From: Verrucomicrobiota bacterium
GTDB lineage: Bacteria > Verrucomicrobiota > Kiritimatiellia > CAIQIC01 > JAGNIJ01
NCBI GenBank assembly: GCA_022710725.1
Contig: JAKLGK010000002.1
Location: 124,001-188,000 of the forward strand
DNA length: 64,000 bases
Reading direction: 5' to 3'
This document shows positions 9,776-63,495 of this stretch, piece by piece; the first letter of the stretch is position 1; every line of letters starts with the position of its first letter. A program made the translations under genes and the position numbers. The notes beneath the pieces were generated by a model. It ran no database searches. It had not been told where the DNA came from and saw only the letters and a list, made by a program, of their open reading frames with translations.

Positions 9776-9842
9776 CGGGTAGGGCGCTTTCGCCGAAAGC
9801 GCCGTGGAAGAAACGGCAGGCTCGGCGAGCCCGCCCTACCCG
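9776..9842. repeat. 67-bp palindromic element with terminal inverted repeats
   Basis: The element is bounded by CGGGTAGGGCG (9776-9786) and its exact reverse complement CGCCCTACCCG (9832-9842). Inside are consecutive hairpins: GGCGCTTT/AAAGCGCC, CCG/CGG around GTGGAAGAAA, and GGCTC/GAGCC. It sits 11 bp after the gap stop and 28 bp before the pgk start, so it is transcribed within the operon. There is no T-run, so it is not a classical terminator. The architecture (outer inverted repeat enclosing a chain of hairpins) resembles the larger CTAGCCCG elements at 41501 and 63237. Confidence 0.75.
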
Positions 9843-9869: not shown

Positions 9870-11126
9870 ATGAACAAGCTGACCATCCGCGACGTGAACT
9901 TCAAGGGCCGGCGCGTGCTGTGCCGGGTGGATTTCAACGTGCCGATCAGGGACGGCGTTGTCAACGACAACACCCGCATCGCGGCCGCGCTGCCGACGAT
10001 CAAGCGCGTGCTCGACCAGGGCGGCGCGCTGGTCCTGATGAGCCACCTCGGCCGGCCGAAGGGGAAGGGGTTCGAGGCGGAGTTCAGCCTGAAGCCGGTC
10101 GCGGCGCGCCTGCAGGAGCTGCTCGGGCGGCCGGTCCAGTTCGGCGGCGACTGCATCGGCGCGGAGGCGCTGGCCCTTGCCCAGGCGCTCAAGCCGGGCG
10201 AGGCGCTGCTGGTGGACAACACGCGCTTCTACAAAGAGGAGGAGGGCAAGGTCAAGCTGCCCGACGACACCCCGGAGGAGCAGAAGAAGGCCGCGAAGGC
10301 CGAGATGAAGGCGAAACAGAAGGAGTTCGCGAAGAAACTGGCCGCCCTCGGAGACGGCGAGATCTACATCAACGACGCGTTCGGCTCCGCGCACCGCGCG
10401 CACGCCTCGACGGCGATCGTGTGCCAGTTCTACAAGAAAAACGTCGCCGGCTTGCTGATGGAGAAGGAAATCGATTTCATGGGCCGAGCCCTGGCCAGCC
10501 CGGAGCGCCCGTTCGTGGCGATCCTCGGCGGCGCCAAGGTCAGCGACAAGGTCAACGTCATCACGAACCTGCTGACCAAGGTGGACGCCCTGGTCATCGG
10601 CGGGGCCATGGCGTACACGTTCTACCGCGCCAAGGGCCTCGCGACCGGCAAATCCCTGGTCGAAGAGGACAAGGTCGACCTGGCGAAGGATATCCTCGCC
10701 AAGGCGGCGGCCGCGAAGGTCAAGCTGCTCCTGCCCGTGGACAACGTCATCGCCGACAAGTTCGACGCCGCGGCGCAGACCAGGGCGGTCGGCGAGTCGA
10801 TCCCGGACGGCTGGATGGCGCTGGACATCGGGCCGAAGAGCGCGGCGCTGTTTGCGGCCGAGATCCGCAAGGCGAAGACGGTGGTCTGGAACGGCCCGAT
10901 GGGCTGCTTCGAAATGGCCCCGTTCGCCGCGGGCACGCTGGCCATCGCGAAGGCCGTGGCCGAGACGAAGTGCTTGAGCATCATCGGCGGCGGCGACAGC
11001 GTCAGCGCCGTGAACAAGAGCGGCCTGGCGGGCAAGATGAGCCACATCAGCACCGGCGGCGGCGCGAGCCTGGAGTTCCTCGAAGGCAAGCAACTGCCCG
11101 GCGTCGTGGCATTGACGGACAAGTGA
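9870..11126 (+). CDS. pgk: Phosphoglycerate kinase
   Basis: A 418-residue monomeric kinase interconverting 1,3-bisphosphoglycerate and ADP with 3-phosphoglycerate and ATP. Motifs include RVDFNVPI near the N-terminus, LMSHLGRPKG, the NDAFGSAHRAHAS segment, AILGGAKVSDK, and the C-terminal GGGDSVSAVNK followed by HISTGGGASLEFLEGKQLPG. A lysine/glutamate-rich stretch at about 126-150 (DDTPEEQKKAAKAEMKAKQK) makes it longer than many bacterial enzymes. ATG 9870 follows an AGGGAG ribosome-binding site at 9855-9860; an earlier in-frame ATG lies in the palindromic repeat. Its stop codon falls inside a heptad repeat. Confidence 0.98.
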   Translation: MNKLTIRDVNFKGRRVLCRVDFNVPIRDGVVNDNTRIAAALPTIKRVLDQGGALVLMSHLGRPKGKGFEAEFSLKPVAARLQELLGRPVQFGGDCIGAEALALAQALKPGEALLVDNTRFYKEEEGKVKLPDDTPEEQKKAAKAEMKAKQKEFAKKLAALGDGEIYINDAFGSAHRAHASTAIVCQFYKKNVAGLLMEKEIDFMGRALASPERPFVAILGGAKVSDKVNVITNLLTKVDALVIGGAMAYTFYRAKGLATGKSLVEEDKVDLAKDILAKAAAAKVKLLLPVDNVIADKFDAAAQTRAVGESIPDGWMALDIGPKSAALFAAEIRKAKTVVWNGPMGCFEMAPFAAGTLAIAKAVAETKCLSIIGGGDSVSAVNKSGLAGKMSHISTGGGASLEFLEGKQLPGVVALTDK

Positions 11127-11212
11127 AGAGTGAATAGTGAATAGTGGGACTGAACCTGCCCATGCCCCGGGGGCTTGGGCGGCCAGCCCTGAACCCTGAA
11201 CCCTGGAACCTC
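11122..11212. repeat. Composite heptad tandem repeat between pgk and tpiA
   Basis: Two heptad arrays separated by a GC-rich spacer. AGTGAAG-AGTGAAT-AGTGAAT-AGTG lies at 11122-11146. CCTGAAC-CCTGAAC-CCTGGAACC ends at about 11210, immediately followed by TCCC and the tpiA ATG. The pgk stop TGA (11124-11126) is part of the first heptad. The same pair of heptads in the same order recurs at 61207-61286. Confidence 0.8.
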
Positions 11213-11214
11213 CC

Positions 11215-12465: not shown

Positions 12466-14235
12466 GTGACGACGCGGGCCCCAACACCCTCCCGAGCCTG
12501 GCCCGGGAGGGTGGCTTGTTTCGGGAGCATCCCTGCAGCGTTGCTTCTGCTTCTTTTCCTGCCCGCGTGCGGAGACCGGATCGCCTCCCCGGCGGCCCGC
12601 GCCTGGCGCAGCCAGACCGCGCGCATCCGAACGCTGGACCCGGCCCGCGCGGCGGATGTCGCCTCCGCGCAGGCTGTCAGCCGGATCTACGAGGGGCTCC
12701 TGCAATACGCCTACCGCGACCGGCCCTACCGCGTCGAGCCGCTGCTGGCCGAGGCCCTGCCGGAGGTCTCGCCGGACGGCCTCGTCTACACGTTCCGCCT
12801 TCGCCGGGGAATCCGTTTCCAGGACGACCCCTGCTTCCCGGGCGGAAAGGGGCGCGAGCTCACGGCGGAGGATTTCGTCTATTCCATCAAGCGCCTCGCG
12901 GACCGCAAGACCGCGGCATCCGGCTACTGGATCTTCCGCGACCGCCTGGCCGGGCTCGACGATTTCCGCGAGGCGTCCGCGGGAAGCGAGCCCACGGATT
13001 ACTCGCAGCGCGTCGAGGGAGCGCTTGCCCTGGATCCGCATACCCTCCAACTCCGCCTGACGCGGCCCTATCCTCAACTGCTGTGGGTGCTGACCATGCC
13101 CTACGCGTCCGCGGTGTCGCGCGAGGCGGTGGAGTACTACGGAGCGGAATTCGACAGGCACCCCGTTGGCACCGGGCCGTTCGTCCTGGCCGATTACCGT
13201 CCGAACTATCGGATCGAGTTCGCCCGCAACCCGGTCTGGGCCGCGGCGGGACGGATCGACCGGGACGCGGAGGGGCACCCGATCCCGGCCCTTGACCGCG
13301 TGGTCCAGTACGTCATCGGGGATCCCGCGACGGCCTGGCTCATGTTCCTCGATGGACGCCTGGAGACATCGGCCGTGTCGCGGGACAACTGGGATGCCGT
13401 TGTCAGAGGCGGTGGCGACCTGGAGCCTGCGCTGGCCGCGCGGGGCATCCGGATGGTGCGCGCGCCGACGCTGGACCTTTTTTACATCGGCTTCAACATG
13501 GACGATCCCGTGGTGGGGACGAACAGGCTGCTGCGCCAGGCGCTGACCTGCGCGTTCGACACGGGGGAGTGGACGCGTTTCTACAACGGGCGCATCGTTC
13601 GGCCCAACGGGCCCATCCCGCCGGGCGTGGCCGGAGCGCCGGAGGGCGAGGGGCCGTTTCCCTTCGATCTCGAGAGGGCGCGGCGCCTGCTCGCCGAGGC
13701 CGGGTACCCGGACGGCGTGGATCCCCGGACAGGTCGCCGGCTGGTCCTGACGCTGGACCTGGGGCAGGCGGATAATCCGGAGATGCGCCAATCGACCGAT
13801 CTTTTCATCCAGTTCATGGACCGGATCGGCGTGGTGATCGAGCCGCGGTACAACAACTGGCCGACGTTTCTCGGGCGGATCGAGCGGCGCCAGGTCCAGA
13901 TGTTCCGGTTGAGCTGGATCGCCGACTACCCGGACGCCGAGAACTTCCTGCAGCTATTCTACAGTCCCAACGCCTCGCCGGGCTCCAACCGCAGCAATTA
14001 CCGCAACCCCGAATACGACCGGCTGTGCGAACAGGCGCGCGTGATGCCGGACTCGGACGAGCGGACCGCGCTATACCGGCGAATGGCCTCGATCATCCAG
14101 GAGGACTGCCCCTGGATCTTCACGCATCATCCGGCGGCCTGCGTCCTGCTCCAGCCCTGGGCACGGAACTTCGAATACCACGACTTCCCGTACGGCATGG
14201 AAAAATACTATGCTGTGGAAGATCCTGAACCCTGA
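12466..14235 (+). CDS. Peptide ABC transporter solute-binding lipoprotein (family 5)
   Basis: A 589-residue SBP_bac_5 (OppA/DppA-like) protein starting with GTG at 12466. A signal peptide with hydrophobic core AALLLLLFLPAC places the lipidated cysteine at residue 35. The family core is visible as RIYEGLLQYAYRDRPYRVEP, FRLRRGIRFQDDP, ELTAEDFVYSIKRLADRKTA and a C-terminal YRRMASIIQEDCPWIFTHHP. Such proteins capture peptides outside the inner membrane and deliver them to an OppBCDF channel. It is the first of two binding proteins that precede one pair of permeases, so the two may serve different ligands. Its stop codon lies in a heptad repeat. Confidence 0.92.
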   Translation: MTTRAPTPSRAWPGRVACFGSIPAALLLLLFLPACGDRIASPAARAWRSQTARIRTLDPARAADVASAQAVSRIYEGLLQYAYRDRPYRVEPLLAEALPEVSPDGLVYTFRLRRGIRFQDDPCFPGGKGRELTAEDFVYSIKRLADRKTAASGYWIFRDRLAGLDDFREASAGSEPTDYSQRVEGALALDPHTLQLRLTRPYPQLLWVLTMPYASAVSREAVEYYGAEFDRHPVGTGPFVLADYRPNYRIEFARNPVWAAAGRIDRDAEGHPIPALDRVVQYVIGDPATAWLMFLDGRLETSAVSRDNWDAVVRGGGDLEPALAARGIRMVRAPTLDLFYIGFNMDDPVVGTNRLLRQALTCAFDTGEWTRFYNGRIVRPNGPIPPGVAGAPEGEGPFPFDLERARRLLAEAGYPDGVDPRTGRRLVLTLDLGQADNPEMRQSTDLFIQFMDRIGVVIEPRYNNWPTFLGRIERRQVQMFRLSWIADYPDAENFLQLFYSPNASPGSNRSNYRNPEYDRLCEQARVMPDSDERTALYRRMASIIQEDCPWIFTHHPAACVLLQPWARNFEYHDFPYGMEKYYAVEDPEP

Positions 14236-14252
14236 ATCCTTCTGAACCTCCC
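14224..14252. repeat. Heptad repeat spanning the stop/start junction of the two binding-protein genes
   Basis: CCTGAAC-CCTGAAT-CCTTCTGAACCTCCC. The TGA at 14233-14235 is the stop of the upstream gene. The last base of the array touches the ATG at 14253. The 12 bases GAACCTCCCATG are identical to those at the tpiA start. Confidence 0.75.
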
Positions 14253-16127
14253 ATGAAAATAATCCTAATCACCTCCGCGTTCCTTCTGCTGGCGTCCATG
14301 GCGGTTCCCGGGTCCGACGCGCTGTTTCCAGGCGACGGCTGGAAGGATGCGCCCAATCCCCTGGCCAGCCCGGAGGCCGTGCCGGGCGGCGAGATCGCGA
14401 TCTACGCCGGCGACTATCCGAAGAGCTTCAACTATTACCTCGACCAGAACGTGTTCTCGGCCGAACTGTTCGGGGCGATGTACGAGACGCTGCTGGGCCA
14501 GCACCCGCTGACGCTCGACTACGAGCCCGGGCTCGCCGAACGGTGGGCCATCTCCGAGGACAAGCGCACGTTTACTTTCTGGATCGATCCGCGCGCGGCG
14601 TGGAGCGACGGCCGGCCGGTCACGGCGGAAGACGTGAAATGGACCTTCGATGCCGTCATGAAGCCGGAGAACATCACCGGCCCGCACAAGATTTTCCTCG
14701 GCCGCTTCGAGTCGCCGGAGGCGCTCGACGAGCGCACGATCCGGTTCCACGCAAAGGAGATCCACTGGCAGAACCTGGATGCGCTGGCCAGCTTCCAGAT
14801 CCTGCCCCGCCATGCGTTCGCCGACGCGGACTTCAACAAGATCAATTTCGAGTTCCCGGTCGTCTCCGGGTCCTACCGGCTGGGCGAGATCCAGGAAGGC
14901 GTGCTGGCGAAGCTGGAGCGGCGCGAGGACTGGTGGACCCGGGGCTCGGCGCGGGCCCGGGGCGTCGGCAACTTCCAGACCCTGGTGTTCAAATTTTTCG
15001 CCGAGCGCGATAACGCGTTCGAGGCGTTCAAGAAGGGCGAGATCGACCTCTTTCCCGTCTACACGGCGCACCTGTGGGCGACGCAGACGGAGGGCGAGCG
15101 CTACGAGAAAAACTGGGTGATCAAGCAGCGGGTCTTCAATTACAACCCCATCGGGTTCCAGGGCTTCGCGATGAACGGCCGGCGCCCGCCCTTCGACGAC
15201 ATCCGGGTCCGCCGGGCGCTGGCGCACCTCCTCGACCGCGAAACGATGAACGCGACCCTGATGCACAACCAGTACTTCCTGCACCGCTCGTACTTCGAGG
15301 ACCTGTACGGCGCGGACCACCCGTGCGAAAACAAGCCGATCCGCTTCGACAGGGAGCGGGCCCGCGAGCTGCTGGCCGAGGCCGGCTGGACGGTCAATCC
15401 CAAGAGCGGCTTGCGGGAGAAGGACGGGAAGCCGCTCCGTTTCCGTTTCCTGTCCCGGGACGCGGCGACGGACAAGTTCCTCGTGATCTACCAGGAGGCC
15501 CTGAAGGACGCCGGCGTGGAAATGGAGATCGAGAAGAAGGACTGGGCCGCGTGGGCGAAGGACATGGACGAGTTCAACTACGACATGACCTGGGCTGCGT
15601 GGAGCGGCGGACTGCGCAAGGACCCCGAGCCCATGTGGTCCTCGACCGAGGCGGACAAGCGGTCGGGTCAGAACATCGCGGGGTTCCGCAACGCGGAGGT
15701 GGACGCCCTGATCGCCAGCCAGCGCGGTAATTTCGACATCGCGCAGCGGCACGACATCTGCCGTCGCATCGATCGCCTCCTGGTTGCCGAGGCCCCGTAC
15801 ATCCTGCTCTGGAACATCAACTACACGCGCCTGCTGTACTGGAACAGGTTCGGCGCCCCGCCGACGGTGCTGGGCAAGTACGGCGACGAGCGCGCGGCCT
15901 ACTGGTACTGGTGGTACGACGAGGACGCGGCGGCCGAATTGAAGGACGCGATGCAGGACGGCCTCCCCCTGCCGCGCAAGCCGGCGGATGTCCGGTTCGA
16001 CGAGGTTTTCCGGGAGGCGCCAGGAACCGGAATTAGAACGGAAGACGCGAAGGACGCCAAGGCTCCGCAGGGAGAAGGCGATGATAAGCAGGAAGTCGCT
16101 CCCGAGCCCCTGAACCCTAACCCCTGA
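14253..16127 (+). CDS. YejA-like extracellular solute-binding protein (family 5)
   Basis: A 624-residue SBP_bac_5 protein with a signal peptide (MKIILITSAFLLLASMAVPG) and no lipobox cysteine, so probably soluble outside the inner membrane. The YejA-type features GDYPKSFNYYLDQN, MYETLLGQHPLT, WSDGRPVTAEDVKWTFDAVM and NPIGFQGFAMNGRRPPFDD are clear. It pairs with the YejB/YejE-like permeases that follow. The last roughly 30 residues (from about TGIRTEDAKDAK) are translated low-complexity intergenic repeat rather than conserved protein, and the stop lies in a heptad repeat. The start at 14253 abuts a heptad array and has no Shine-Dalgarno sequence. Confidence 0.92.
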   Translation: MKIILITSAFLLLASMAVPGSDALFPGDGWKDAPNPLASPEAVPGGEIAIYAGDYPKSFNYYLDQNVFSAELFGAMYETLLGQHPLTLDYEPGLAERWAISEDKRTFTFWIDPRAAWSDGRPVTAEDVKWTFDAVMKPENITGPHKIFLGRFESPEALDERTIRFHAKEIHWQNLDALASFQILPRHAFADADFNKINFEFPVVSGSYRLGEIQEGVLAKLERREDWWTRGSARARGVGNFQTLVFKFFAERDNAFEAFKKGEIDLFPVYTAHLWATQTEGERYEKNWVIKQRVFNYNPIGFQGFAMNGRRPPFDDIRVRRALAHLLDRETMNATLMHNQYFLHRSYFEDLYGADHPCENKPIRFDRERARELLAEAGWTVNPKSGLREKDGKPLRFRFLSRDAATDKFLVIYQEALKDAGVEMEIEKKDWAAWAKDMDEFNYDMTWAAWSGGLRKDPEPMWSSTEADKRSGQNIAGFRNAEVDALIASQRGNFDIAQRHDICRRIDRLLVAEAPYILLWNINYTRLLYWNRFGAPPTVLGKYGDERAAYWYWWYDEDAAAELKDAMQDGLPLPRKPADVRFDEVFREAPGTGIRTEDAKDAKAPQGEGDDKQEVAPEPLNPNP

Positions 16128-16134
16128 ATCCTCC
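16036..16134. repeat. Low-complexity repeats at the end of the second binding-protein gene
   Basis: A 9-bp-period repeat (AAGACGCGAAGGACGCCAAGG and neighbours) begins inside the coding region near 16041. It is followed by the heptad-type sequence CCTGAAC-CCTAACC-CCTGAATCC at 16109-16130. The stop TGA is 16125-16127, inside the second array. The next gene starts at 16140. Confidence 0.6.
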
Positions 16135-36892: not shown

Positions 36893-39800
36893 ATGCGCAT
36901 CTTGCCTGTTCTGGCTGCGGCTGGCGGCTTGGTCTGCGTAACGGTCCGGGCCGGCGCGTCCACGCGATACGTAGCGGCATCCGGCAGTCACTCGTCCCCG
37001 TACACCAACTGGGCCACCGCCGCGCACGATATCCAGACGGCCGTGGACGCGGCCTCCGCCGGCGAGACGATCCTCGTCACGAACGGGATCTACGACACGG
37101 GCGGGCGCGCCATGGACAGCGGCATGACCAACCGCGTCGTGATCAACAAGGCCGTGACCGTGATCAGCGTCAACGGGCCGGACTTCACGTTTCTTGTCGG
37201 CCAACCCTGTCCGACCAACGGCGCGAACGGGAGCGGGGCGATCCGCGTGGCCTACTTGAGCGGCGGCGCGGTGCTGGCGGGATTCACGGTGACCAACGGA
37301 TACACCCTCGCCCTGGAAGACAGCGGCAGCGCCAAGACCAGCGGGGGCGGGGTGTACGTTTCCGGGGACGGGATGATCTCCAACTGTGTGCTGACGGGCA
37401 ACGCGGCTTACTACTACGGGGGCGGCGCGGTCGATGCGGCGGTCCATCGCTCCATTCTGGCCGGCAATCGCGCCCGATCGAGCGGCGGCGGGGCTGATGA
37501 GAGCCAGCTCTATAATTGCATCCTTGTTGGCAACACGTCCTACGGGGGCGGCGGCGCGAGTTACAGCCGGTTGTACAACTGCACCGTGATCGGGAACACG
37601 GCCACCAACCGCGGTGGCGGAGTGTCCTACAGTTATTGCTTCAGCAGCATCCTGGCGGATAACGACGCGCCGTCGGGCGCGAATGTGTATTTCTGGTCCT
37701 ACACTAACTGCTGCCTCTACCCCGCGACGACGGTCGGCGGGAACAGCATCACGAACGAACCGGGGTTCGTGGACGGCCCGGACGGCGACTATCGCCTTTC
37801 GGCCACGTCGGCCTGTATCAACGCCGGGCTGGTCATGCCCTGGATGACCGACGCGCGGGATTTCGACCTGAACGCTCGCGTCGTGGGCGCCAGCGTGGAC
37901 ATCGGTGCTTTCGAATACCAGGGCCTCTCCGATCCGCTCTTGGTGGAGATCGTTGCCGCCGATCTCCAGGCGGTTGTCGGATACTCCGTTCCGCTGGCCG
38001 GCCGGATCGTGGGTAACGCGGAGGGTTTTGTGTGGCAGTTCGGCGACGGCCGCGGCGCGACGAACCAGCTGTATGTCACCAATACCTACGCCGCGGTGGG
38101 CCTGTACGAGGTCACGCTGACGGCCTCCAACCTCGCCGGCGCCGTCGTCGCCACGGCGGCCGTGGAAATCGTCAGCGCGGACTACGCCTACTACGTGGCG
38201 ACGAACGGCGACGACGCCGCGGCCGGCACGAACTGGGCGACGGCCAAGGCGACGATCCAGGCGGCGGCCGACGCGGCGGGGCCCGGCTGCACGATCTGGG
38301 TCACCAACGGCGTCTACGACCGGGGCGGGCGCGTTGTCTACGGCAGCTTGACCAACCGCGTCGCGCTCGACAAGCCGCTCTTCCTCCGCAGCGTCAACGG
38401 GCCGGACGTGACGATCATCGCCGGCGCGCCGAACGCCGACGGCGTCCCGGACGGCGCCGCGGCCGTGCGTGGCGTCTACATGGCCAGCAACACCGTCCTC
38501 GACGGGTTCACGGTGACCAATGGCCACACGCTGGCGGAAGGCGACACGACGCGCGAGCGCAGCGGCGGCGGGGTCTACGCGGGCACCACGAACGCCTTCA
38601 TCACCAATTGCGTGATCACCGGCAGCACCGCCGACCGCTACGGGGGCGGGTGCTGCCGGGGCACTCTTTATAACTGCCGGCTGCTGGGCAACGCGGCCAC
38701 GAACATGGGCGGCGGCGCGTATTCCGCGGTCCTGTTTGGTTGCCTGGTGACGGACAACGCCGCGCTGAATGGGGGCGGGCTTGCCAGTTCAGCGGCCCGG
38801 AACGGCGTCGTGCGCGGCAACCGCGCCGCGCAATATGGCGGCGGGCTCTACTCGGCAGCCGGGGCGTCGGAGAGTTGCACGGTCGCCGGCAACAGCGCGG
38901 GCACGAGCGGCGGCGGAGCGTATCGCGGTTCGCTCCTGAATTCCATCGTCTACTATAACGATGCGCCCACCGGCCCCGATTTCTTCGAAGGCGACTTTAC
39001 GAACTGCTGCGTCGCTTCCTGGCCCGCGGGGGCCAACAACATCACCAACCCGCCGGGCATCGTCAGCACGCTGGACCCTCGCCTCATGCCGGGCGCCGCC
39101 GTCATCGGACGGGGCACGAACCAGCCATGGATGGCAGCCGCCGTGGACTGGGACGGCGCGCCGCGGATCACGGGCGCGTCGGTGGACATGGGGGCGTTCG
39201 AATTCGTTTCCGAATCGGAGTGTACTGGCGCGTTGAGCGCGGCGATTTCGTGCGCCTACACGCAGGCTCCCGCCGGGTTCTCGGTGCCGTTCGAGGCGCT
39301 TGTCGCCGGCCGGGTGCAGGGCTACGAGTGGGATTTCGGGGACGGCGCGCGCGCGACCAGCGGGTGCGTGGTCGGCCATGCCTTCGCGGCGGCGGGAGTG
39401 TTCCCGGTCGTGCTGACGGTGTCCAATCTCGCCGGTTCCGTCGCCGCGACGACGGAAGTCGCCATCGTGGAGCCGGACTGCAACCTGTATGTCCGGCCGG
39501 GCGGGGATGATGGCGCGGCGGGAACAAACTGGGTGACCGCCTTCGCAACGATCCAGGCGGCCGTGGACGCCGCGAGCCTCGGCTGCACGATCTGGTTGAC
39601 CAACGGCGTCTACACGAACGGCGGGCGCGCGGTCGAGGCTGGCCTGACCAACCGCGCCGCCGTGGACCGGGTCGTCACCGTCCGCAGCGTCAACGGGCCG
39701 GCCTTCACGGCGATCGCGGGGCAGGGCGGTATCGGCCCCGGGGCGGTGCGCTGTGTCTGGCTGGGCAGCGGGGCGCGGTTGGATGGATTCACGCTGACCA

Positions 39801-41485
39801 ATGGATTCACCCTGGCGACCGGCACGTCGGAGAAGCAGGGGGGCGGAATCTGGGCCGAGGGTTCGCTGGCCGTGGTCACCAATTGCTGGGTCGCCGGCTG
39901 CGGCGCGGCCGGGAGCGGCGGGGGCGGGTACGGCGGCAACTACCAGGCGTGCGTGTTCGATGGCAACACCGCCGCGCGTGGCGGCGGGGTCAGCGCGGCC
40001 GAGTTGGAGGGCTGTACCGTCACCAACAACCGGGCGAGTTATGGCGGCGGGACCGAGTACGGCACGCTGTCGGACTGCCGGATCAGCCGCAACAGCGCGA
40101 CCAACGGCGACGGCGGCGGCGCATACGGCGGCACGCTGACTGGTTGCTTGCTGTCCGGCAACACGGCCGCCAACGCCGGCGGCGGCGCGTACAATGCACA
40201 ATTGTCCGAGTGCACGCTGCTAAGCAACCTGGTCTCCGGCGCGACCGGCGAGGGCGGCGGAGCGTACGGGGGAACGCTCGTGGATTGCGCGCTCGTCCAG
40301 AACTCGGTCACGAACCATCCCTCGTTCGGAGGCGGGGCCTCCGCCGTTGACCTGGTCGGTTGCACCTTGACCAGCAACCGGGCCGATTACGGCGGTGGGG
40401 CGTACGGGGGAAGCCTCTCGAACTGCGCGGCGGGCTGGAACGGCGCGGCTTACGGCGGCGGCGCGTACGATAGCCTCCTGAACGATTCATCGCTGCACCA
40501 TAACGCCGCGTCGAACGGCGCCGGGCTGTATCTCGGGTCCGCGTACGACACCGTATTTTCCAACAACACGGCCGTGGCGGGCGGAGGGGGCGCGTGCGCC
40601 TCTGTTCTGCACAATTGCCGCCTGCTCCACAACGACGCGGGCGAGGGCGGTGGAGCCGCGGGTGGGACGATCTACAACTGCGTCGTACTGAACAACACGG
40701 CCGATTACGGCGGCGGTGTGGCCTCGGCGGAGAGCTACAACTGCACCATCGTCGGCAACGACGCGACCTCGTTCGGCGGCGGCACGTTCTGGGGCACGCC
40801 GCGCAACTGCATCGTCTACTACAACACCGCCTTCGCCTCGGTGAATGCGTACTTCGGCTGGCTGACCAACTGCTGCAGCACCCCGATGCCGGACGGGACG
40901 GACAATTTCATCGCCGCGCCGAGGATGGCGGACTATGCCGCCGGCGACGTCCGGCTCTTGAGCAACTCTCCGTGCATCAACGCGGGGACGAACCAGGACT
41001 GGATGATCGGCTCGCGAGACCCGGACGGGAACCACCGGATCATCCTGAACGTCGTGGACGTCGGCGCATACGAGTACGCCTACCCAGGCGTCGACCACGA
41101 CGGCGACGGCATCGAGACGGCTTACGAAACCGGGACCGGCGTCTACGCCGGGCCGGAGAACACGGGCACGGACCCGCTGTCGGCCGACACGGACGCCGAT
41201 CGGTTGACGGACGGCGACGAGTTGACGGCGGGGAGCGATCCGACAGACGACGCTTCCTTCCTGGGCATGATTCTTCCTTCGGCGCAGGACGCGGCGGGCC
41301 TCATCGTGTCCTGGCAGAGCGCCGAGGGGAAGACTTACCGGCTCGAGCGGTCCAGCAACCTGGTCTGGGGCTTCGATTACCTGGTGCAGACCAACATCCC
41401 GGCGACGCCTGTCGTCAACACGGTTACCGACGCCACCGCGACGGGGACGGGCCCCTACTACTACCGCGCCGGCGTCGAGCCATAG
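36893..41485 (+). CDS. Giant secreted parallel beta-helix protein with PKD domains
   Basis: A 1530-residue exported protein. ATG 36893 follows AAGGAG and begins a signal peptide (MRILPVLAAAGGLVCVTVRA). Three similar modules follow, each opening with YVA-type strand, TNWATAxxxIQxAxDAA and TNGVY, then a glycine-rich beta-helix of units like GGGAYGGTLTGCLLSGNTA, and closing with a NAGTNQxWM and VDxGAxEY motif. PKD domains lie between modules (about 350-428 and 774-860; GFVWQFGDGRGATN, GYEWDFGDGARATS). Residues about 1400-1530 are the calcium-type repeat plus C-terminal beta module shared with other secreted proteins here. Likely a surface adhesin or polysaccharide-acting protein; no catalytic residues are recognised. 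Confidence 0.88.
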   Translation: MRILPVLAAAGGLVCVTVRAGASTRYVAASGSHSSPYTNWATAAHDIQTAVDAASAGETILVTNGIYDTGGRAMDSGMTNRVVINKAVTVISVNGPDFTFLVGQPCPTNGANGSGAIRVAYLSGGAVLAGFTVTNGYTLALEDSGSAKTSGGGVYVSGDGMISNCVLTGNAAYYYGGGAVDAAVHRSILAGNRARSSGGGADESQLYNCILVGNTSYGGGGASYSRLYNCTVIGNTATNRGGGVSYSYCFSSILADNDAPSGANVYFWSYTNCCLYPATTVGGNSITNEPGFVDGPDGDYRLSATSACINAGLVMPWMTDARDFDLNARVVGASVDIGAFEYQGLSDPLLVEIVAADLQAVVGYSVPLAGRIVGNAEGFVWQFGDGRGATNQLYVTNTYAAVGLYEVTLTASNLAGAVVATAAVEIVSADYAYYVATNGDDAAAGTNWATAKATIQAAADAAGPGCTIWVTNGVYDRGGRVVYGSLTNRVALDKPLFLRSVNGPDVTIIAGAPNADGVPDGAAAVRGVYMASNTVLDGFTVTNGHTLAEGDTTRERSGGGVYAGTTNAFITNCVITGSTADRYGGGCCRGTLYNCRLLGNAATNMGGGAYSAVLFGCLVTDNAALNGGGLASSAARNGVVRGNRAAQYGGGLYSAAGASESCTVAGNSAGTSGGGAYRGSLLNSIVYYNDAPTGPDFFEGDFTNCCVASWPAGANNITNPPGIVSTLDPRLMPGAAVIGRGTNQPWMAAAVDWDGAPRITGASVDMGAFEFVSESECTGALSAAISCAYTQAPAGFSVPFEALVAGRVQGYEWDFGDGARATSGCVVGHAFAAAGVFPVVLTVSNLAGSVAATTEVAIVEPDCNLYVRPGGDDGAAGTNWVTAFATIQAAVDAASLGCTIWLTNGVYTNGGRAVEAGLTNRAAVDRVVTVRSVNGPAFTAIAGQGGIGPGAVRCVWLGSGARLDGFTLTNGFTLATGTSEKQGGGIWAEGSLAVVTNCWVAGCGAAGSGGGGYGGNYQACVFDGNTAARGGGVSAAELEGCTVTNNRASYGGGTEYGTLSDCRISRNSATNGDGGGAYGGTLTGCLLSGNTAANAGGGAYNAQLSECTLLSNLVSGATGEGGGAYGGTLVDCALVQNSVTNHPSFGGGASAVDLVGCTLTSNRADYGGGAYGGSLSNCAAGWNGAAYGGGAYDSLLNDSSLHHNAASNGAGLYLGSAYDTVFSNNTAVAGGGGACASVLHNCRLLHNDAGEGGGAAGGTIYNCVVLNNTADYGGGVASAESYNCTIVGNDATSFGGGTFWGTPRNCIVYYNTAFASVNAYFGWLTNCCSTPMPDGTDNFIAAPRMADYAAGDVRLLSNSPCINAGTNQDWMIGSRDPDGNHRIILNVVDVGAYEYAYPGVDHDGDGIETAYETGTGVYAGPENTGTDPLSADTDADRLTDGDELTAGSDPTDDASFLGMILPSAQDAAGLIVSWQSAEGKTYRLERSSNLVWGFDYLVQTNIPATPVVNTVTDATATGTGPYYYRAGVEP

Positions 41486-41500
41486 ATTCCGTTTCGGACT

Positions 41501-41717
41501 CTAGCCCGGATAATGCGCGATTGGCGCGCATTATCCGCCCAAAGGGCCGTGATGTGCCCGCGTTGCGGGCACAAACGGGGCTTGCCACGTTCGTATTGTC
41601 GAATCCTTGATTCGACAATACGTCACGTCTTCTGGCACGCGAATTGCCTATGCAATTCGCGTGCCCAGAAGCGCTTATTGCGTGAGCGTCTCTACGCTCA
41701 TGCAATAAGCGGGCTAG
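41501..41717. repeat. CTAGCCCG-bounded mosaic hairpin element, copy 1
   Basis: 217 bp bounded by CTAGCCCG (41501-41508) and CGGGCTAG (41710-41717). Five hairpins follow one another: a 12-bp stem 41508-41519/41525-41536; an 8-bp stem 41554-41561/41565-41572; a 14-bp stem 41592-41605/41609-41622 with a 3-base loop; a 14-bp stem 41634-41647/41652-41665; and an 18-bp stem with one G-T mismatch 41672-41689/41694-41711. It lies between two convergent genes. The right end provides the TAG stop of selD. A copy at 63237-63495 is identical except for 42 extra bases. Confidence 0.9.
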
Positions 41718-42919: not shown

Positions 42920-42947
42920 TGTGCGCCAACGAAGACGGACGGAATTA

Positions 42948-43030
42948 AACCACAGAGGTCGCGGAGGGCACAGGGGAATGATGAGCAGCGTTGATTCTCC
43001 TCCGTGACCCTCTGTGTCCTCCGTGGTTCA
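42948..43030. repeat. Imperfect inverted repeat of 9-10 bp-period sequence between selB and selD
   Basis: The left arm AACCACAGAGGTCGCGGAGG begins at 42948. The right arm, read on the minus strand from 43027, begins AACCACGGAGGACACAGAGG. The arms are about three-quarters identical and face each other around a 15-20 bp centre. The selB stop TGA (43028-43030 on the minus strand) directly precedes AACCACGG. Confidence 0.7.
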
Positions 43031-49169: not shown

Positions 49170-52100
49170 TCACGGCTCCAGGCGGACGCGGTAGAACCGG
49201 GTCGCCGTGCCCGCGACCGAATCGGTGCGGGAGTTGTAGGGAGAAACACCGGGGATGTTGGTGAAAAGCGTCGCCGTGAAGCCCTGCGCCAGGTTGGTGC
49301 TCTGTTCGACGCGGTAGGATATTCCGGTCACGCCGCGCCAGGACAGCACGATCGAGTCTGCCGCGGGGCCGGCCCAGGGCGCCGCCAGGCCGAGGAACGA
49401 GTCCCCGTCGCCCGGATGCGAGCCGGCCGGATACTCGTCGCGGTTCGGCATGTGATCGCCGTCGGGGTCGCCGTCGGGATCCGTGCCGGTCAGGACCTTC
49501 TCGTACTGCCACTCCCACCAGTCGGGCAGACCGTTGCCGTCCGTGTCCCACGCGGTCAGGATCGCCTCGTAGGCGCCCTGGTCCACGCGGTTGTGCGCGA
49601 CGCGGGGACGGGCATCCAACTCCAGCGCGCCCGCCATCCAGGCTTGGTTGGTCCCCGCGTCGATGCAAGGCGAGGCATCGCCCAGCCGGAAGTTGTCCGA
49701 GACGGCGTCCACAAAGGCGGGATTCGCCGCCGAGTTGCCGGTTCCCGCCACGGCGGGGCCCGTGGTGCTGTACTGCACGTCCTGGCCCGAGCCGAAGAGG
49801 ACAATGTTCGAATCCGACGAGGCGCTGTTAGCCCACGCGATGGAATTCAGCAGGACCGCGCTGCCGTTGAGGTAGATCCCGCCCGCTTCCGCGCCCGCGT
49901 TCCGCGCGAACGTGCAGCTCTCGACGACCGGCGCTCCGGAGTCGGTGTAGGTGTACGCCCCGCCGCCGCGCTCCCCGGCGGTGTTGGCATAGGCCAGGCA
50001 ATTCCGCAGCTCGCCGCCGTTGATCAGCGCCGCGCCGCCGCCGCTCTTCTCGGTGCTGTTGCTGTGCAGGATGCAATTGACCAGCCGGCCGCCGCCCTCG
50101 ATCCGCGCGCCGCCGCCGCTGTTCCCGCCGCCGGCGCCCCGCCGGAGCGTGAACCCCTCCACGACCGCGTCCGCATGCGCCAGGTAGAGGCAGCGCGTCG
50201 CGTCCCCGCCGTCGAGGATCGTGGCGGCCGAGCCGTTCGTGCTGCGGAGGGTCAGCGCCTTGGCGATGCTGACCTGCGCCGACAGCGAATACGTGGCTTC
50301 GGCCACGAGCACGGTCGCTCCCGCGGGGACGTAGTCGACGGCGGCCTGCAGGCCGGTCGACGCCGTGGCCCAGTTCGTGAAGGGCGGCGTGTGCGAGCCG
50401 GCCGGGGACACGTAGTACGCGGCCGGCGCATCGGCGCTGAATTGCGCGGTCAGCGAGACGGGCTCCGACACCGTGACGGAGATCGAGGTCGACGACACCC
50501 CGCCTGCCGTGATGGCGTGGGTGTCGCCGGTCCACTGCGCGAACCGGTAACCGTTGCTGGGCGACGCCTGCAGCGCGACGATCGCGCCGGGTTCGTGCCA
50601 CCCGCCTTCCGGTGTCACCCATCCGCCGCCGCCCGACGAGACGGTCAGCATGTAGTTCGTAGTCCAGCGCCAGGTGAGCGTGGCATCGTTGGTGACGGTC
50701 ATCGTCATCCCGTTCGTATTGCCGGATTCCGGGCTGTGGCCGGTCATGATCCAGCCCGCGTTCGCGTAGCGCGAACCGCCCTGGATGTCCGGCGTGGTGA
50801 CGCTGTTGGTCATGGTCTGGCCGGCGGAGACCAGGTGCGCGCCCGCCGCCAGCGTCGCGGTCCCGTGGTCGGTCCGGATCGTCAGCGTGTAGTTCGTCCC
50901 GCTGGACTCGTGGCTGCCGGGCGTGGGCGTTGCGGCGGCCCAGCTCGCGGCATCCGCGCCCCACAAGGCGGGATCGCCGCGTGTCAGCGACAAGCCGCCG
51001 CCGTCCGCGCCGGCGGGCCAGGGCGCGTCGTCGTCGTAGTCGATCACGTCCTCGATCAGCATTGGATAGAAGGACGGCTCGCCCGCGGGCGGGTCGTCCG
51101 GCCGCATCAGCCGCACCTCCTCGCCGCCGTTGTCCAGCGTGCCCGAGAACGCGCCGACGAGCGGGACGGAGGTCGAAATGCCGTAGACCGAGCGGAAGTC
51201 CGCCAGGAGCGCGCTGTTCGAGGGAGCGGCCGGGTTGAACGGCAGAACGACCAACGCAGCGTGGGCGCCGACGGTTGTGCCGGTCGGGAACTGGAACGTG
51301 ACGCCGGTGTCCAATTGCCAGCGCGTCATATCCGTGGCTTGCGACAGCGGGTTGTACACCTCGATAAATTCCAGGTGGTTGCTGCCGCTCGGCGGGTTAT
51401 ACATCACTTCGCTGACCAGCAGCGGGCCGACCCGCGGGCCGCTGTTGGCCTCGCCGAATGTCCGGCTGCTCATGGGGTACAGGCTGCCCGAGCCGTTCGG
51501 CCAGCGCCCGAACGATTCGCCGTTGGCCGCTGCGCCGAACTCCGGGTGGTCCACGAAGCGCTGGAGGTTCCCCGCCGCATCCGCCTGCATGAGGTACACA
51601 TCGTCCCCGTGCGCGCCGTCCAGGGCGAAGTCGTTGGTGCTCGCGCCGCCCGACGTGTTAAAGTGATTAGTTTCGTTGAACGCGACGTACGCGCCCGCAG
51701 CCAGGATCGTGCCGTCCGGGATCCGGTACTTCGTATACCGGGCGCTCGTGTCGGTCAGGTACCAGCCGCCGATGTCGATCGCGCTCTCGGTGGTGTTGAA
51801 CAGCTCGATCGCGTCGCACAGGGGCGGATCGGTATGGGTCAGCACCTCGTTGACCACCACGCGGTGGTCCGGCCCGAGCCCCGCCGCGCCCGGCGATCCG
51901 CCGTACTCCGAGCTCGACCGCCAGTTGAACGGGTCGTCATAGCTCGCCGTCGGGTCGAGGACCTCCAGGCTGCTGCCCTTGCCGTCGGCGCGACCCGGCC
52001 AGTCGCCGCTGTCGTCGTACGTGAAGGCCTTGAAGACCTGCCCGGCCGCGTTGAGCAATTGCAGCGCCTCGCCCCCGTTGCTCAAGTTCCCGCTGCACTG

Positions 52101-54506
52101 CCCGATGACCTGGATGCTGGCGTTGGTGTACCGGACGCGGAAGGAGTTGGTATGGTAGGCGATCACCGCGTACTCGCCCGCGCCCAGCGTGAAGGCCGGG
52201 AAAGTAAACGTGATGCCGACGGTGAACCGGTAGCCGTCGAGCGCGATCGGCGTGCTCCCGGCGTTGTGCAGCTCGAGGAACTCCAGGTTCTGGTCGTCCG
52301 TCACGCCCGCGGCGATCTCCGCGGCGGTGCGGGCGTACGGGTTGTAGTTCAGCTCCGTGATCACGAGGGCCGTCGCGGCGTTGGTGATGGTCAGGGTCAG
52401 CGCGTAGTCCGTCCCGCCGAACGGATGGAACGTCGACTGGCCCATGCCGTCCACGGCCCGCAGGAAATAGCGCAACTGCCCGTTCGTCGTGAACGCGGGG
52501 AGCGCCGTCGACCAGCGATCCGCACTCCGGTTGGTCAACGCCACCTCGTTGGTCGGCCCGTTGTTGAACGAATAGGCGAGCCGGACCGAGGCCAGCGACA
52601 CGTCGTCGGTCACGCGCGCCGAGATCGTGAAGGCGTCGTTGACGAACGGGGGATCGGGGTCCATGGCGAAGTCGGAGATGATGGGCGCGATGTTCTGCAG
52701 GTCCAGCTGGTTCAGGGCATTCGTCCGCCGGATGGCTATGAATTCCGTGATGCCGTAGTGGTTCGGCACGTTGCCGTTGTACGGGTACTGTCCGTCGATA
52801 TAGGAGTAGAAGAACTGGTCGTAGGTCCAGTACGGCCAGTCGCCGGCGTAGCGGTCGCGCTCCCGGTCCTTCATGTTGCTGACGCCGCCGGAGACGATCG
52901 GCAGGGCGGCCACCAGGTTGGAGCGCGTGGAGTAGATCGCCGGGTCGAGCAGCGCATTTGTGTAGACCGTGTTCAGGAACTGCTTCATGTAGAAGGAGTA
53001 ACGCTTCCGGAACTCCGGCACGCCCATGATCTTCGTCATCAGCGGCGCGCCGTTGGCGTTCGCGTCGCCCCACGCGTACAGGTCCCGGCTTTCCCATTGC
53101 AGGTCGTACCAGTCGATGCTGAAGCTGTTGTCGAAGTCGTACGGGATGAACTGCCAGCGCCGCGTGAGCGGGTCGAGGAACAGGTGGTAGTTGTTGGCGT
53201 TGGCCCAGTAGTTGTCCCAGTTGCCGCAAAGCACCTCCAGCGCCATGCGCTTCAGAAAGCCGTCCACGTCGAAGGCCTGCATGATCGCGTTGGGGAAGTC
53301 GTTGCTGGGCGTCTGGTCGATCAGCGCGATGAACTCCGCGAGGTCGTCGTAGGACGCGTCGCCGCCGCCGTCGTGCTTGAGCTCGTAGGTCGTGCCGTCC
53401 CCGATGTACGAGCTGCCCGTTGGCCCGCGGTACGCCAGGTTGGCCGGCCACTGGCGATAGTTGCACTTGTAGAGGTTGCCCGCGCTGCTGCCGAACCGCG
53501 ACTTGACGAACACGTCGTCCACCGGTTCGGTGTTGTTGCGCACCGCGTCGAAGAACGCCCCGCCCACCCAGTTGCCGCGGTCCCAGTCCGGCCCGATCAC
53601 CACGAGGGCCACGTGGTTCGCGTACGAGGTCGGCAGGCCGATGCGGTTGCCGAGGTCGTTCAGCAGCTTCGGCCGGGCCATGGACGGATCGTTGACGTCG
53701 GAGTTCCAGTAGAGGCGCTCCATCCCGAACAGCTTCCGGCCAGGCACGAAGGCGTTGAGCGCGATGTTGAACGAGCGCGGCTGTTTCTCGCGGCTCGTGT
53801 TGCCCCGGCAGCGGATGCCCACGTTGGTGACCGTGACGTCGATGTCCCCGTGCCGGACGCGCAGCGTGATGGAGCGGTAGGTTTCGTTCCACGGGTCGTA
53901 CATGAGCGTGTCCCAGTCCGACTGCGAGATCGTGATGTCCGCACGTAAAGCCGAGTCGTCGCAGTAGAGCGGGTGGGGGCCCGGCCGGCAGGTGTTGGCC
54001 GAGCCCGGCGTATGTCGGATCAGGTAGCCCGCATGCCCCGCCCACAGCGAGGCGTTCGAGCCGGAAGTCTGCCAGCCGTAGGACACGTCCGGGTGCTGGA
54101 CGGGGAACGGGGCGTACTGGCTGACCACATTCGTGCCGGTCGAGTCCACCAGGGCCAGGTATTCGCCGTCCGCGGAGAGCTTGAAACTCGTGTGCAGGTT
54201 CGGACTGGTCCGGTCCTTCTCCGAAGCGAAGACCCGGAGGTAGGCGCCCGCGGCCAGATTGGTCGCCGGGAAGGTCCACTTGGCCGGCTGGTTCGTGTCG
54301 TCCGTGAGGTGCCAGCCGCCGAGGTCCACGTCCGCCGGACCGGAGTTGTGAATCTCGATCCAGTCGGAGTAATCCCCGTCCTCGTCCTGCAGCACCGTCT
54401 GGTTGTCCGCCATGAACTCGCTGATGAGCACGGCGGCGGGCGTGAGATGGCTCCCGGCCAGCCATGCGATGGCGAACGCAAGGAGGAATCGGGCGGGAAT
54501 GGTCAT
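49170..54506 (-). CDS. Giant secreted CotH-kinase/lamin-tail protein
   Basis: A 1778-residue exported protein. After the signal peptide ([19 protein letters not shown]) comes a lamin-tail domain (about 25-140, [20 protein letters not shown] and WIEIHNSG). A CotH-type kinase domain spans about 190-560 ([36 protein letters not shown]). Further lamin-tail domains lie at about 715-840, 880-1010 and 1030-1160, each with an LEFLELHN- or WELYN-like core. A bacterial-repeat region follows, then a short beta-helix ending [13 protein letters not shown], and the shared C-terminal module ending RFYRVRLEP. CotH kinases phosphorylate secreted proteins, so this may modify surface partners. It ends 1 bp from the phosphatase gene on the other strand. 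Confidence 0.85.
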
Positions 54507-61206: not shown

Positions 61207-61286
61207 ACGTGAATGGTGAATGGTGAATGGTGAATAGTGGAGGCCCAACCTCCTCCTGACACCTGAACCCTGAACCCTGACACCTT
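61207..61286. repeat. Composite heptad tandem repeat between btuC-like and btuD-like genes
   Basis: Plus strand: four units GTGAATG-GTGAATG-GTGAATG-GTGAATA at about 61210-61237, a GC-rich spacer, then CCTGAAC-CCTGAAC-CCTGACACC at about 61263-61286. The two heptads and their order are the same as between pgk and tpiA, but here the array is read in the opposite direction relative to the genes. Confidence 0.8.
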
Positions 61287-62260: not shown

Positions 62261-62273
62261 CCGAAGGAACGGG

Positions 62274-62335
62274 GCCGTGGATAGCGCGGACTTCGCGGAT
62301 AGGTCATCCGCGCTCATCCGCGAAATCCGTGGTCA
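62274..62335. repeat. Imperfect inverted repeat between btuF-like and btuC-like genes
   Basis: Read on the minus strand, GACCACGGATTTCGCGGATG and CGCGGATGA face ATCCGCGAAGTCCGCGCTATCCACGG. The two halves are imperfect inverted copies of a GCGGAT-rich sequence. The btuF-like stop TGA (62333-62335) is the TGA of GATTGACCACGG at the repeat edge. Confidence 0.65.
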
Positions 62336-63178
62336 ATCCGTTGTTTTCATCAGCCATTCCGAGAGCGCCTCCGCGCCGTCGAGCATACGCGGACCCGGGC
62401 GCAGGAGCCAGTCCGGGTTGATGCCGGCGCAAACGTGGTCCTCGCGGACGGCCCGGAGCCGGTCCCATCCCGGCCGTTGGGCCAGCCGTTCCGCCGCCGC
62501 GTTCGTGGTCATGTAGGCGAGCACGATGACGTCCGGATCCTGCGCCAGGATCCATTCCGAACTCGCGTTCGCGTACGAGCGGTCCAGCGCCGCGCCGATA
62601 TTTCGCCCCCCCGCCAGCGTGACCAGGTCGTTCGCGAAGGATTCCTTCCCCGCGGTCATCGGCGGATCGCTCCAGATCTCGATGTACACGCTGGGCCGTT
62701 CCCGCCCGGCCCAGAAAGTGTTCGCGCGCTGTTCAATCGCCGTCCGCCGGACTTCCATGTCCTGCGCCCAGCGGATCCCGGCTTCGGCGTCCCCGAGCTC
62801 GCGGGCGACGGCGCGTCCAGTGTCCAGCAGGCCCGTCCAGTTCTCGCACGACAGGACCAGCACTTTGATACCTTGACCCTCTAGGTATCCACGCAGGCCG
62901 GGCTTTTCGAGGTCGGTGGCCAGGACCAGATCGGGATGCGCTGCCAGCAGGGCCTCCTGGTTCGGCCGCCCGAAATCGCCGAGCACCGGAAGTGCCAGGG
63001 CTTCCGGCGGGTAGTCGCAGGCCGAGGATCGCCCGACGAGCCGGTCGCCGAGCCCGAGCGCGAAGACGAGTTCCGTCAGGCTGGGGGCCAGGCTGACGGC
63101 GGTGAGGGACGGTTCCTGGCCTCCGGCCGGTAAATTCGCCAGCCAAAGCGTTGTCAAAACGAGCCCGGTTATGCGCAT
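62333..63178 (-). CDS. BtuF-like periplasmic binding protein
   Basis: A 281-residue class III (helical-backbone) binding protein. ATG 63178 begins a signal peptide (MRITGLVLTTLWLANLPAGG). The core SLAPSLTELVFALGLGDRLV, CDYPPEALALPVLGDFGRPN and LAAHPDLVLAT matches the cobalamin-binding BtuF group more closely than siderophore binders, though haem or iron-chelate binding cannot be excluded. It is the first gene of btuF-btuC-btuD. I looked for a cobalamin riboswitch B12 box upstream and saw none; instead a mosaic hairpin element ends 59 bp before the start codon. Confidence 0.9.
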   Translation of the reverse strand: MRITGLVLTTLWLANLPAGGQEPSLTAVSLAPSLTELVFALGLGDRLVGRSSACDYPPEALALPVLGDFGRPNQEALLAAHPDLVLATDLEKPGLRGYLEGQGIKVLVLSCENWTGLLDTGRAVARELGDAEAGIRWAQDMEVRRTAIEQRANTFWAGRERPSVYIEIWSDPPMTAGKESFANDLVTLAGGRNIGAALDRSYANASSEWILAQDPDVIVLAYMTTNAAAERLAQRPGWDRLRAVREDHVCAGINPDWLLRPGPRMLDGAEALSEWLMKTTD

Positions 63179-63236: not shown

Positions 63237-63495
63237 CTAGCCCGGATAATGCGCGATTGGCGCGCATTATCCGCCCAAAGGGCCGCCACGTGAGCCGCGT
63301 AGGCCGCGGCAACGTGGCCGCACGCGGTGATGTGCCCGCGTTGCGGGCACAAACGGGGCTTGCCACGTTCGTATTGTCGAATCCTTGATTCGACAATACG
63401 TCACGTCTTCTGGCACGCGAATTGCCTATGCAATTCGCGTGCCCAGAAGCGCTTATTGCGTGAGCGTCTCTACGCTCATGCAATAAGCGGGCTAG
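63237..63495. repeat. CTAGCCCG-bounded mosaic hairpin element, copy 2
   Basis: 259 bp bounded by CTAGCCCG (63237-63244) and CGGGCTAG (63488-63495). By eye it is identical, base for base, to the element at 41501-41717 except for 42 extra bases at 63286-63327. Those contain one more hairpin (CCACGTGAGCCGCG at 63286-63299 against CGCGGCAACGTGG at 63305-63317). The element fills most of the 313-bp gene-free stretch upstream of the btuF-like gene. Its right end supplies the TAG stop of the secreted-protein gene at the window edge. Orientation is the same as in copy 1. Confidence 0.9.

Follow-up and report, generated by a model that had tools for sequence, protein, structure and literature searches.

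Repeats of several unrelated families in this genome coincide with the stop codons of genes. It is probable that mobile repeats insert at short sequences containing a stop triplet, that copies in coding sequence are purged, and that most of the stop codons involved are the genes' own. The DNA analysed (the window) is a 64-kb stretch, positions 124001–188000 of contig C7 in an assembly (G000) of 3.89 Mb and 14 contigs. A preliminary description had placed seven stop codons of the window inside or at the edge of repeats from at least four unrelated families. All seven were confirmed, each terminating a real gene as judged by our own gene caller and Pfam, and five repeat classes (F1b, F1a, F4, F2 and F3) were distinguished at these junctions.

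Stop codons and repeats in the window

The genes ending at the seven junctions gave Pfam matches to PGK, SBP_bac_5 (two proteins), AIRS/AIRS_C (selD), SelB domains and Peripla_BP_2 (btuF-like); no Pfam family was matched by the secreted protein at the window edge (stop 63492–63494). The stops tied to repeats were 7 of the 44 in the window.

The pgk stop is the first TGA (11124–11126) of an F1b heptad array, AGTGAAG AGTGAAT AGTGAAT AGTG (11122–11149, plus strand). It is followed by an F1a array, (CCTGAAC)n, at 11188–11214 (plus strand), whose CCTCCC end abuts the next start codon (ATG, 11215). Two further F1a arrays on the plus strand contain the stops of the binding-protein genes. In the first (14224–14252), the second heptad holds the stop (14233–14235), the protein tail DPEP is encoded by the repeat, and CCTCCC is followed by ATG at 14253; in the other (16109–16132), the third heptad holds the stop (16125–16127) and the repeat-encoded tail is PEPLNPNP. 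Among the seven junctions, repeat-encoded tails were found only in these two genes. The selD stop (TAG, 41716–41714, minus strand) lies within the right CTAG of an F4 multi-hairpin element (41501–41717, plus strand), which has CTAG at 41501–41504 and 41714–41717. A second copy, a long form with an extra arm (63237–63495, plus strand), has CTAG at both ends, and one of these contains the stop of the edge protein (TAG, 63494–63492, minus strand). F2 is a dyad edged by TGAACCAC[AG]GAGG, present as TTAAACCACAGAGG ... CCTCCGTGGTTCA at 42946–43030 (unstranded), where the TGA of the right edge (43030–43028, minus strand) is the selB stop. F3, a rare relative with ACCACGGATT units, lies at 62266–62344 (unstranded) as ACCACGGATTTCGCGGATGA units with an inverted partner, and the stop of the btuF-like gene (62335–62333, minus strand) is at its edge.

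The same stop behaviour was seen in a class outside the seven junctions, F7, in which GTAG stands at the base of a short palindrome (GTAGGGCGGCTTGGCTCAAGCCGCC and related) and the palindromes form inverted pairs, GTAGGGCG ... CGCCCTAC. The pair in the window (9779–9839, unstranded) lies 14 nt past a stop, whereas elsewhere a gene may terminate on the TAG of the GTAG tag itself. A composite of F1b and F1a heptads at 61208–61284 (plus strand) is antisense to both neighbouring genes and has no stop coincidence. Also in the window are a large protein (36893–41482) that contains internal repeats and matches PKD and NosD, and a long minus-strand ORF (49170–54506).

Placement of the repeats at gene ends

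Placement was assessed in 80 stretches of 20 kb plus the window (1.663 Mb, ~43% of the genome), together with targeted loci. Genes in this sample were called with our own dicodon model, giving 1343 genes, 91.5% coding sequence and a GC content of 67%. Each repeat end lying no more than 150 nt from the 3' end of a gene that it faced was scored by how far its terminal stop triplet was offset from the stop codon. The null expectation was uniform placement in the same real gap, up to the gap end and with an overlap of 12 nt into the gene allowed. With loci fetched around known repeats counted in, the stop coincided exactly with the first TGA in 8 of 12 F1b copies facing a gene end (expected 0.17; P 4e-13), and exact coincidence was found in 4/7 F2 copies (expected 0.14; P 4e-6) and 5/14 F7 pairs (expected 0.18; P 6e-7). 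The comparison with random placement proposed in the preliminary description thus left the pattern standing across ~43% of the genome, and chance was dropped as its cause, the exact matches of F1b, F2 and F7 being far more numerous than random placement allows. For F4, the gene stop fell within the terminal 4-mer in 8/13 explicitly delimited copies from the same genome; a looser scan for F4 ends (83 ends) was too unspecific and was left out. F3 was represented by only three clear copies in the genome.

Not every repeat family behaved in this way. The palindrome families F5 and F6 (TTCCAATGTTTGGAA, CACACTTTGCAAAGTGTG) showed no exact stop coincidence in the sampled stretches and were rejected as stop-associated families. 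Further multi-copy intergenic palindromes (TTTCCAATGTTTGGAAA, CACACTTTGCAAAGTGTG, CACACTTCTAGAAGTGTG, TCACAGTTTATAAACTGTGA), likewise free of stop coincidence, were observed in the G000 stretches L081–L160. F1a was rejected as a stop-anchored family and tends towards the start codon: it lies at scattered distances from stops, its 3' end is often at the next start codon (CCTGAACCCTGAACCCTCCC-ATG), its orientation is that of the downstream gene, and CCTCCC directly precedes ATG at L099, L121, L148 and L105 and in the window arrays at 11188 and 14224. At the stops 14233 and 16125, the gap measures 12–17 nt and the upstream gene runs into the array. F1a is a separate case, anchored to the next start, in which a short gap lets the upstream gene read in and stop at a TGA, the 7-nt period placing one in every frame.

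The F1b arrays showed a fixed register. Their first TGA serves as the stop in 8 of the 10 arrays of G000 that a gene enters, and it is also used in three arrays of the same-genus genome G001 (L207, L211 and L219), although L211, being orthologous to L180, does not count independently. AAG TGA precedes seven of the G000 arrays, yet it makes up 14/1220 sampled stops (1.1%). In a low-GC distant relative (G110), arrays start with TAG TGA at gene ends (L220 and L234, as well as L216, whose first unit is degenerate). At L173 and L161 the gene reads into the array and stops at a later triplet. Heptads containing TGA shut all three frames within 21 nt, and a gene reading in must end there; frame closure alone is nevertheless insufficient, because a gene entering at random would stop at the first TGA in one frame out of three. 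This register, together with unchanged C-termini (below), supports insertion of F1b at an AAGTGA-like site that would already contain the stop.

Copies of F7 differed in how the gene meets the tag. At L104 each of two convergent genes terminates in one of the copy's two GTAGs, so at least one GTAG may come with the element, and at L110:18530 the copy is read through for ~36 nt. Of the non-coding GTAGGGCG target sites, 31% are stops. Five Y1_Tnp matches (RAYT-type, PF01797) were found in the genome, and the GTAGGGCG motif was not found in the 3.2–3.3 kb around each of them (L298–L302). We infer that the F2 ends (TGAACC/TAACC) and the GTAG of F7 are insertion targets, though they could be element sequence.

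The multi-hairpin element F4 and its insertion sites

F4 is a multi-hairpin element of 217–259 nt that is bounded by CTAG in the window copies and has no coding capacity; the window copies are near-identical to copies at unlinked genomic sites. CTAG stands on both sides of most copies and, being palindromic, would look the same as a duplication or as inverted ends. The non-palindromic end 4-mers are direct repeats in all five intact pairs (CTGG, ATAG, TTAG, CTAA and CTAA), and inverted CTAG ends belonging to the element were rejected. F4 insertion thus duplicates a 4-bp target of YTAR type in direct orientation, with CTGG and ATAG departing from the strict motif; in four copies the end 4-mers no longer match each other. 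Because the ends are duplicated target, the stop at an F4 edge is the target itself, YTAR containing TAG or TAA. Target duplications were established for F4 alone among F1b, F2, F4 and F7.

Sampled CTAG sites comprised 53 stop codons, ~116 sites inside genes and ~135 between genes, so that 28% of harmless CTAGs are stops. The corresponding value for non-coding AAGTGA sites is 23%. The observed stop shares, 8/13 for F4 (moderately above 28%; P ~0.012, by hand) and 8/17 for intergenic F1b arrays, are somewhat above the 23–28% expected from target content alone (binomial P ~0.01–0.03, by hand). Something more may therefore act, for instance because regulatory DNA upstream is avoided or because there is a direct preference.

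Beyond the duplicated 4-mer, the terminal inverted repeat of F4 is CCCG/CGGG only, plus hairpins. The predicted fold is a closed ring of arms with a free energy of ~-135 kcal/mol, lower than that of shuffled sequences by 10 to 16 standard deviations. Four divergent copies (two G000 subfamilies, one from G038 and one from G005) were compared over predicted pairs only, a comparison that leans towards the structure; stem differences were two-sided in 166 instances and one-sided in 6, and G-T pairs accounted for 46/1630 predicted pairs. The predicted stems would thus suit DNA hairpins better than RNA, and F4 as mainly an RNA structure was dropped. A known Rfam RNA was likewise dropped, there being no Rfam match to F4 at gathering score in the window.

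A covariance model of the F4 core matched in 11 of 145 genomes, and the named records sharing the core are Verrucomicrobia/Lentisphaerae MAGs, which makes a Kiritimatiellia-type bacterium the most likely host. No match to DDE_Tnp_1 (PF01609), the DDE family searched, was found in the same genome, whose assembly is 94.8% complete. An exact F4 core linker was also seen at position 2251 of IMG/VR contig L036, which is classed as viral. Shorter sequences with F4-core linkers (CACGTGA, AACGTGG, CCCATCAC) sit in the anticodon-loop sequence of tRNA-Ser(TGA) copies (CCGGTCTTG^AAAACCGG) at L067 1–700 (start of G000:C8), the end of L068 (G000:C5), L055 1501–1563 (G001) and L044 1501–1563 (G034). These inserts adjoin an intact tRNA-Ser as well as a gene for a small GIY-YIG nuclease (PF01541), the final codons and TGA of which extend into the insert; the arrangement may represent an F4-related homing system.

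Origin of the stop codons

The preliminary description had spoken of repeats supplying the stop codons and had suggested either that insertion targets stop codons or that insertions near 3' ends survive when they bring an in-frame stop. Orthologues lacking the repeat were compared. In G001, pgk lacks the array, and its end, GAC AAG TGA, falls where the array-bearing G000 gene ends; several other relatives' pgk genes also end LPGxxxLxDK. A gene that we take to be guaA from its conserved C-terminus ends GAG TGA plus an array in G001 and GAA TAA in G000, with IEWE as the protein end in both. The L217/L102 gene ends CAG TAG in both genomes, with an array two bases on in G001 and none in G000. For the L013 gene, the end is TAC TAG in G000, where an F4 copy is present, and TAC TAA in G001, which has no element; TTAA-free of any insert, the latter is again a YTAR 4-mer. 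Since the repeat-free orthologues of these four genes end at the same codon, the C-termini are unchanged and the claim that repeats supply the stops did not hold for them. The exception is selD: F4 is absent from the G001 locus, and the protein encoded there exceeds the G000 one in length, so that F4 may have changed a C-terminus in this case. Judged by these comparisons, in most of the cases tested the stop pre-exists and the protein is unchanged.

At the junction between two genes presumed from their conserved ends to be pdxA and rsmA, different families were found in different genomes: F1b in G000, a CCACGG dyad edged AAA TAA CCACGG in G011, and an F3-like element ~14 nt past the stop in G007. 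No such repeat was present in G001 and G005, and the C-termini ended around NPWK/NPWR. The G000 copy (L176, G000:C10:111448-111528) is an inverted F1b pair with TGAA on both sides; the G001 genes overlap at GTGA, and the insert would fit a 4-bp duplication splitting an overlapping stop and start.

Insertion at stop-containing targets would account for these observations as follows. The targets or ends would each hold a stop triplet: YTAR-like 4-mers for F4, GTAG for F7, AAGTGA-like sites for F1b and TGAA/TAAC edges for F2. With ~91% of the genome coding, target copies inside genes would be unusable without damage, so that much of the harmless supply would consist of stop codons. After insertion at a stop, the reading frame would still close on the same triplet and the protein would not change, and copies at such sites would therefore persist. 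Insertion at a stop-containing target is shown for F4 by its duplications and a repeat-free orthologue, and it is supported for F1b. That the ends of F1b, F2 and F7 are target and not element sequence, with purging of coding sites making the bias, is what we infer. The first suggestion of the preliminary description thus fits F1b and F4, with the target being a short stop-containing sequence and not termination as such. The second fits the two F1a genes and perhaps L161 and L173. As a whole, that reading of the coincidence is partly supported.

It is unlikely that random landing near gene 3' ends, with retention of copies that bring an immediate in-frame stop and so shorten the protein only a little, explains the pattern generally. 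The repeat-encoded F1a tails, the later stops at L173 and L161, the read-through at L110:18530, a selD shorter than its G001 orthologue and the closure of all frames by heptads are as expected if repeats supply the stop. However, random entry would not produce the preference for the first TGA in both genomes, pgk, guaA and the L217/L102 and L013 genes retain normal C-termini, and the F4 ends are duplicated target.

That the heptad arrays grew in situ, through slipped replication beginning at a gene end that reads AAGTGAAT, has little probability. It would suit the seven-base period, the varying copy number, a first unit that is the gene end in most copies, and the rarity of AAGTGA among stops although most arrays stand in that context; for heptads, PMC4679880 cites a proposal of polymerase slippage. 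Against this, unlinked F1b loci share the same consensus and downstream partner (F1a, then CTTGCCCGCC-type sequence), and inverted-pair copies exist at L176 and L168. Retention of arrays and dyads as gene insulators (all-frame stops, hairpins) or as regulators of the next gene's translation is equally improbable: co-directional genes often have F1b behind the stop of the first paired with F1a ahead of the start of the second (window 11122–11214 at pgk, L166, L180 and L211), and E. coli REPs at most 15 nt from a stop are reported to affect translation (PMC12306157), but orthologous junctions lack a repeat or carry another family, and antisense and non-anchored copies are present.

Insertion at stop-containing targets has partial precedents. 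GTAG-tagged REPs can give TAG stops to genes (PMC3733652), and F7 resembles the REP/REPIN–RAYT system described there in its GTAG tag, GC-rich palindrome, inverted pairing and the presence of Y1_Tnp genes in the genome; it differs in that the F7 motif was not found in the 3.2–3.3 kb loci around the five Y1_Tnp matches, and F7 is the sole family of this kind here. The TAACTGA heptads of Beggiatoaceae are intergenic, close all frames (a point made in the same paper), run in many cases toward start codons, and overlap the upstream gene's stop in 13 sets (PMC4679880). F1a and F1b are likewise intergenic 7-nt direct repeats with stops in all frames, whereas their units are CCTGAAC and AGTGAAT; AGTGAAT is tied in a single register to the stop upstream, and CCTGAAC is tied to the start downstream. 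F4 is like IS5-type miniature elements, for which the YTAR target motif of IS5 is given (PMC10359306), in its 4-bp YTAR-like direct duplications, lack of coding sequence and near-identical unlinked copies. Unlike them, it has CCCG and hairpins in place of a terminal inverted repeat of ~15 bp or more, an interior of multi-arm, nearly perfect palindromes, and a genome without a PF01609 match.

The TAG stops of GTAG REPs and the overlap of heptads with stops are therefore already known in part; what is new is that AGTGAAT arrays keep a fixed register, together with the comparison of orthologues, the interpretation as target sites and F4 itself. In literature searches neither the F4 structure nor the AGTGAAT/CCTGAAC heptad units turned up, and the multi-hairpin mobile element is apparently undescribed. 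We suggest tentatively, as possible and not as probable, a joint proposal: that F4 represents a new class of mobile element (non-coding, ~200–260 nt, a closed ring of six or seven near-perfect hairpins, YTAR-like sites, a 4-bp duplication and a stop preference) and that F1b arrays insert in a fixed register at AGTGA gene ends, one repeat family thereby in effect targeting stop codons. The unusually clean stem compensation of F4 could help in looking for the mobilising enzyme. In such genomes repeats shape C-terminal annotations and intergenic lengths, which calls for caution. More generally, a testable rule follows, that gene ends are a safe harbour for any repeat whose target or end contains a stop triplet, and this rule explains the convergence of unrelated families on stop codons.
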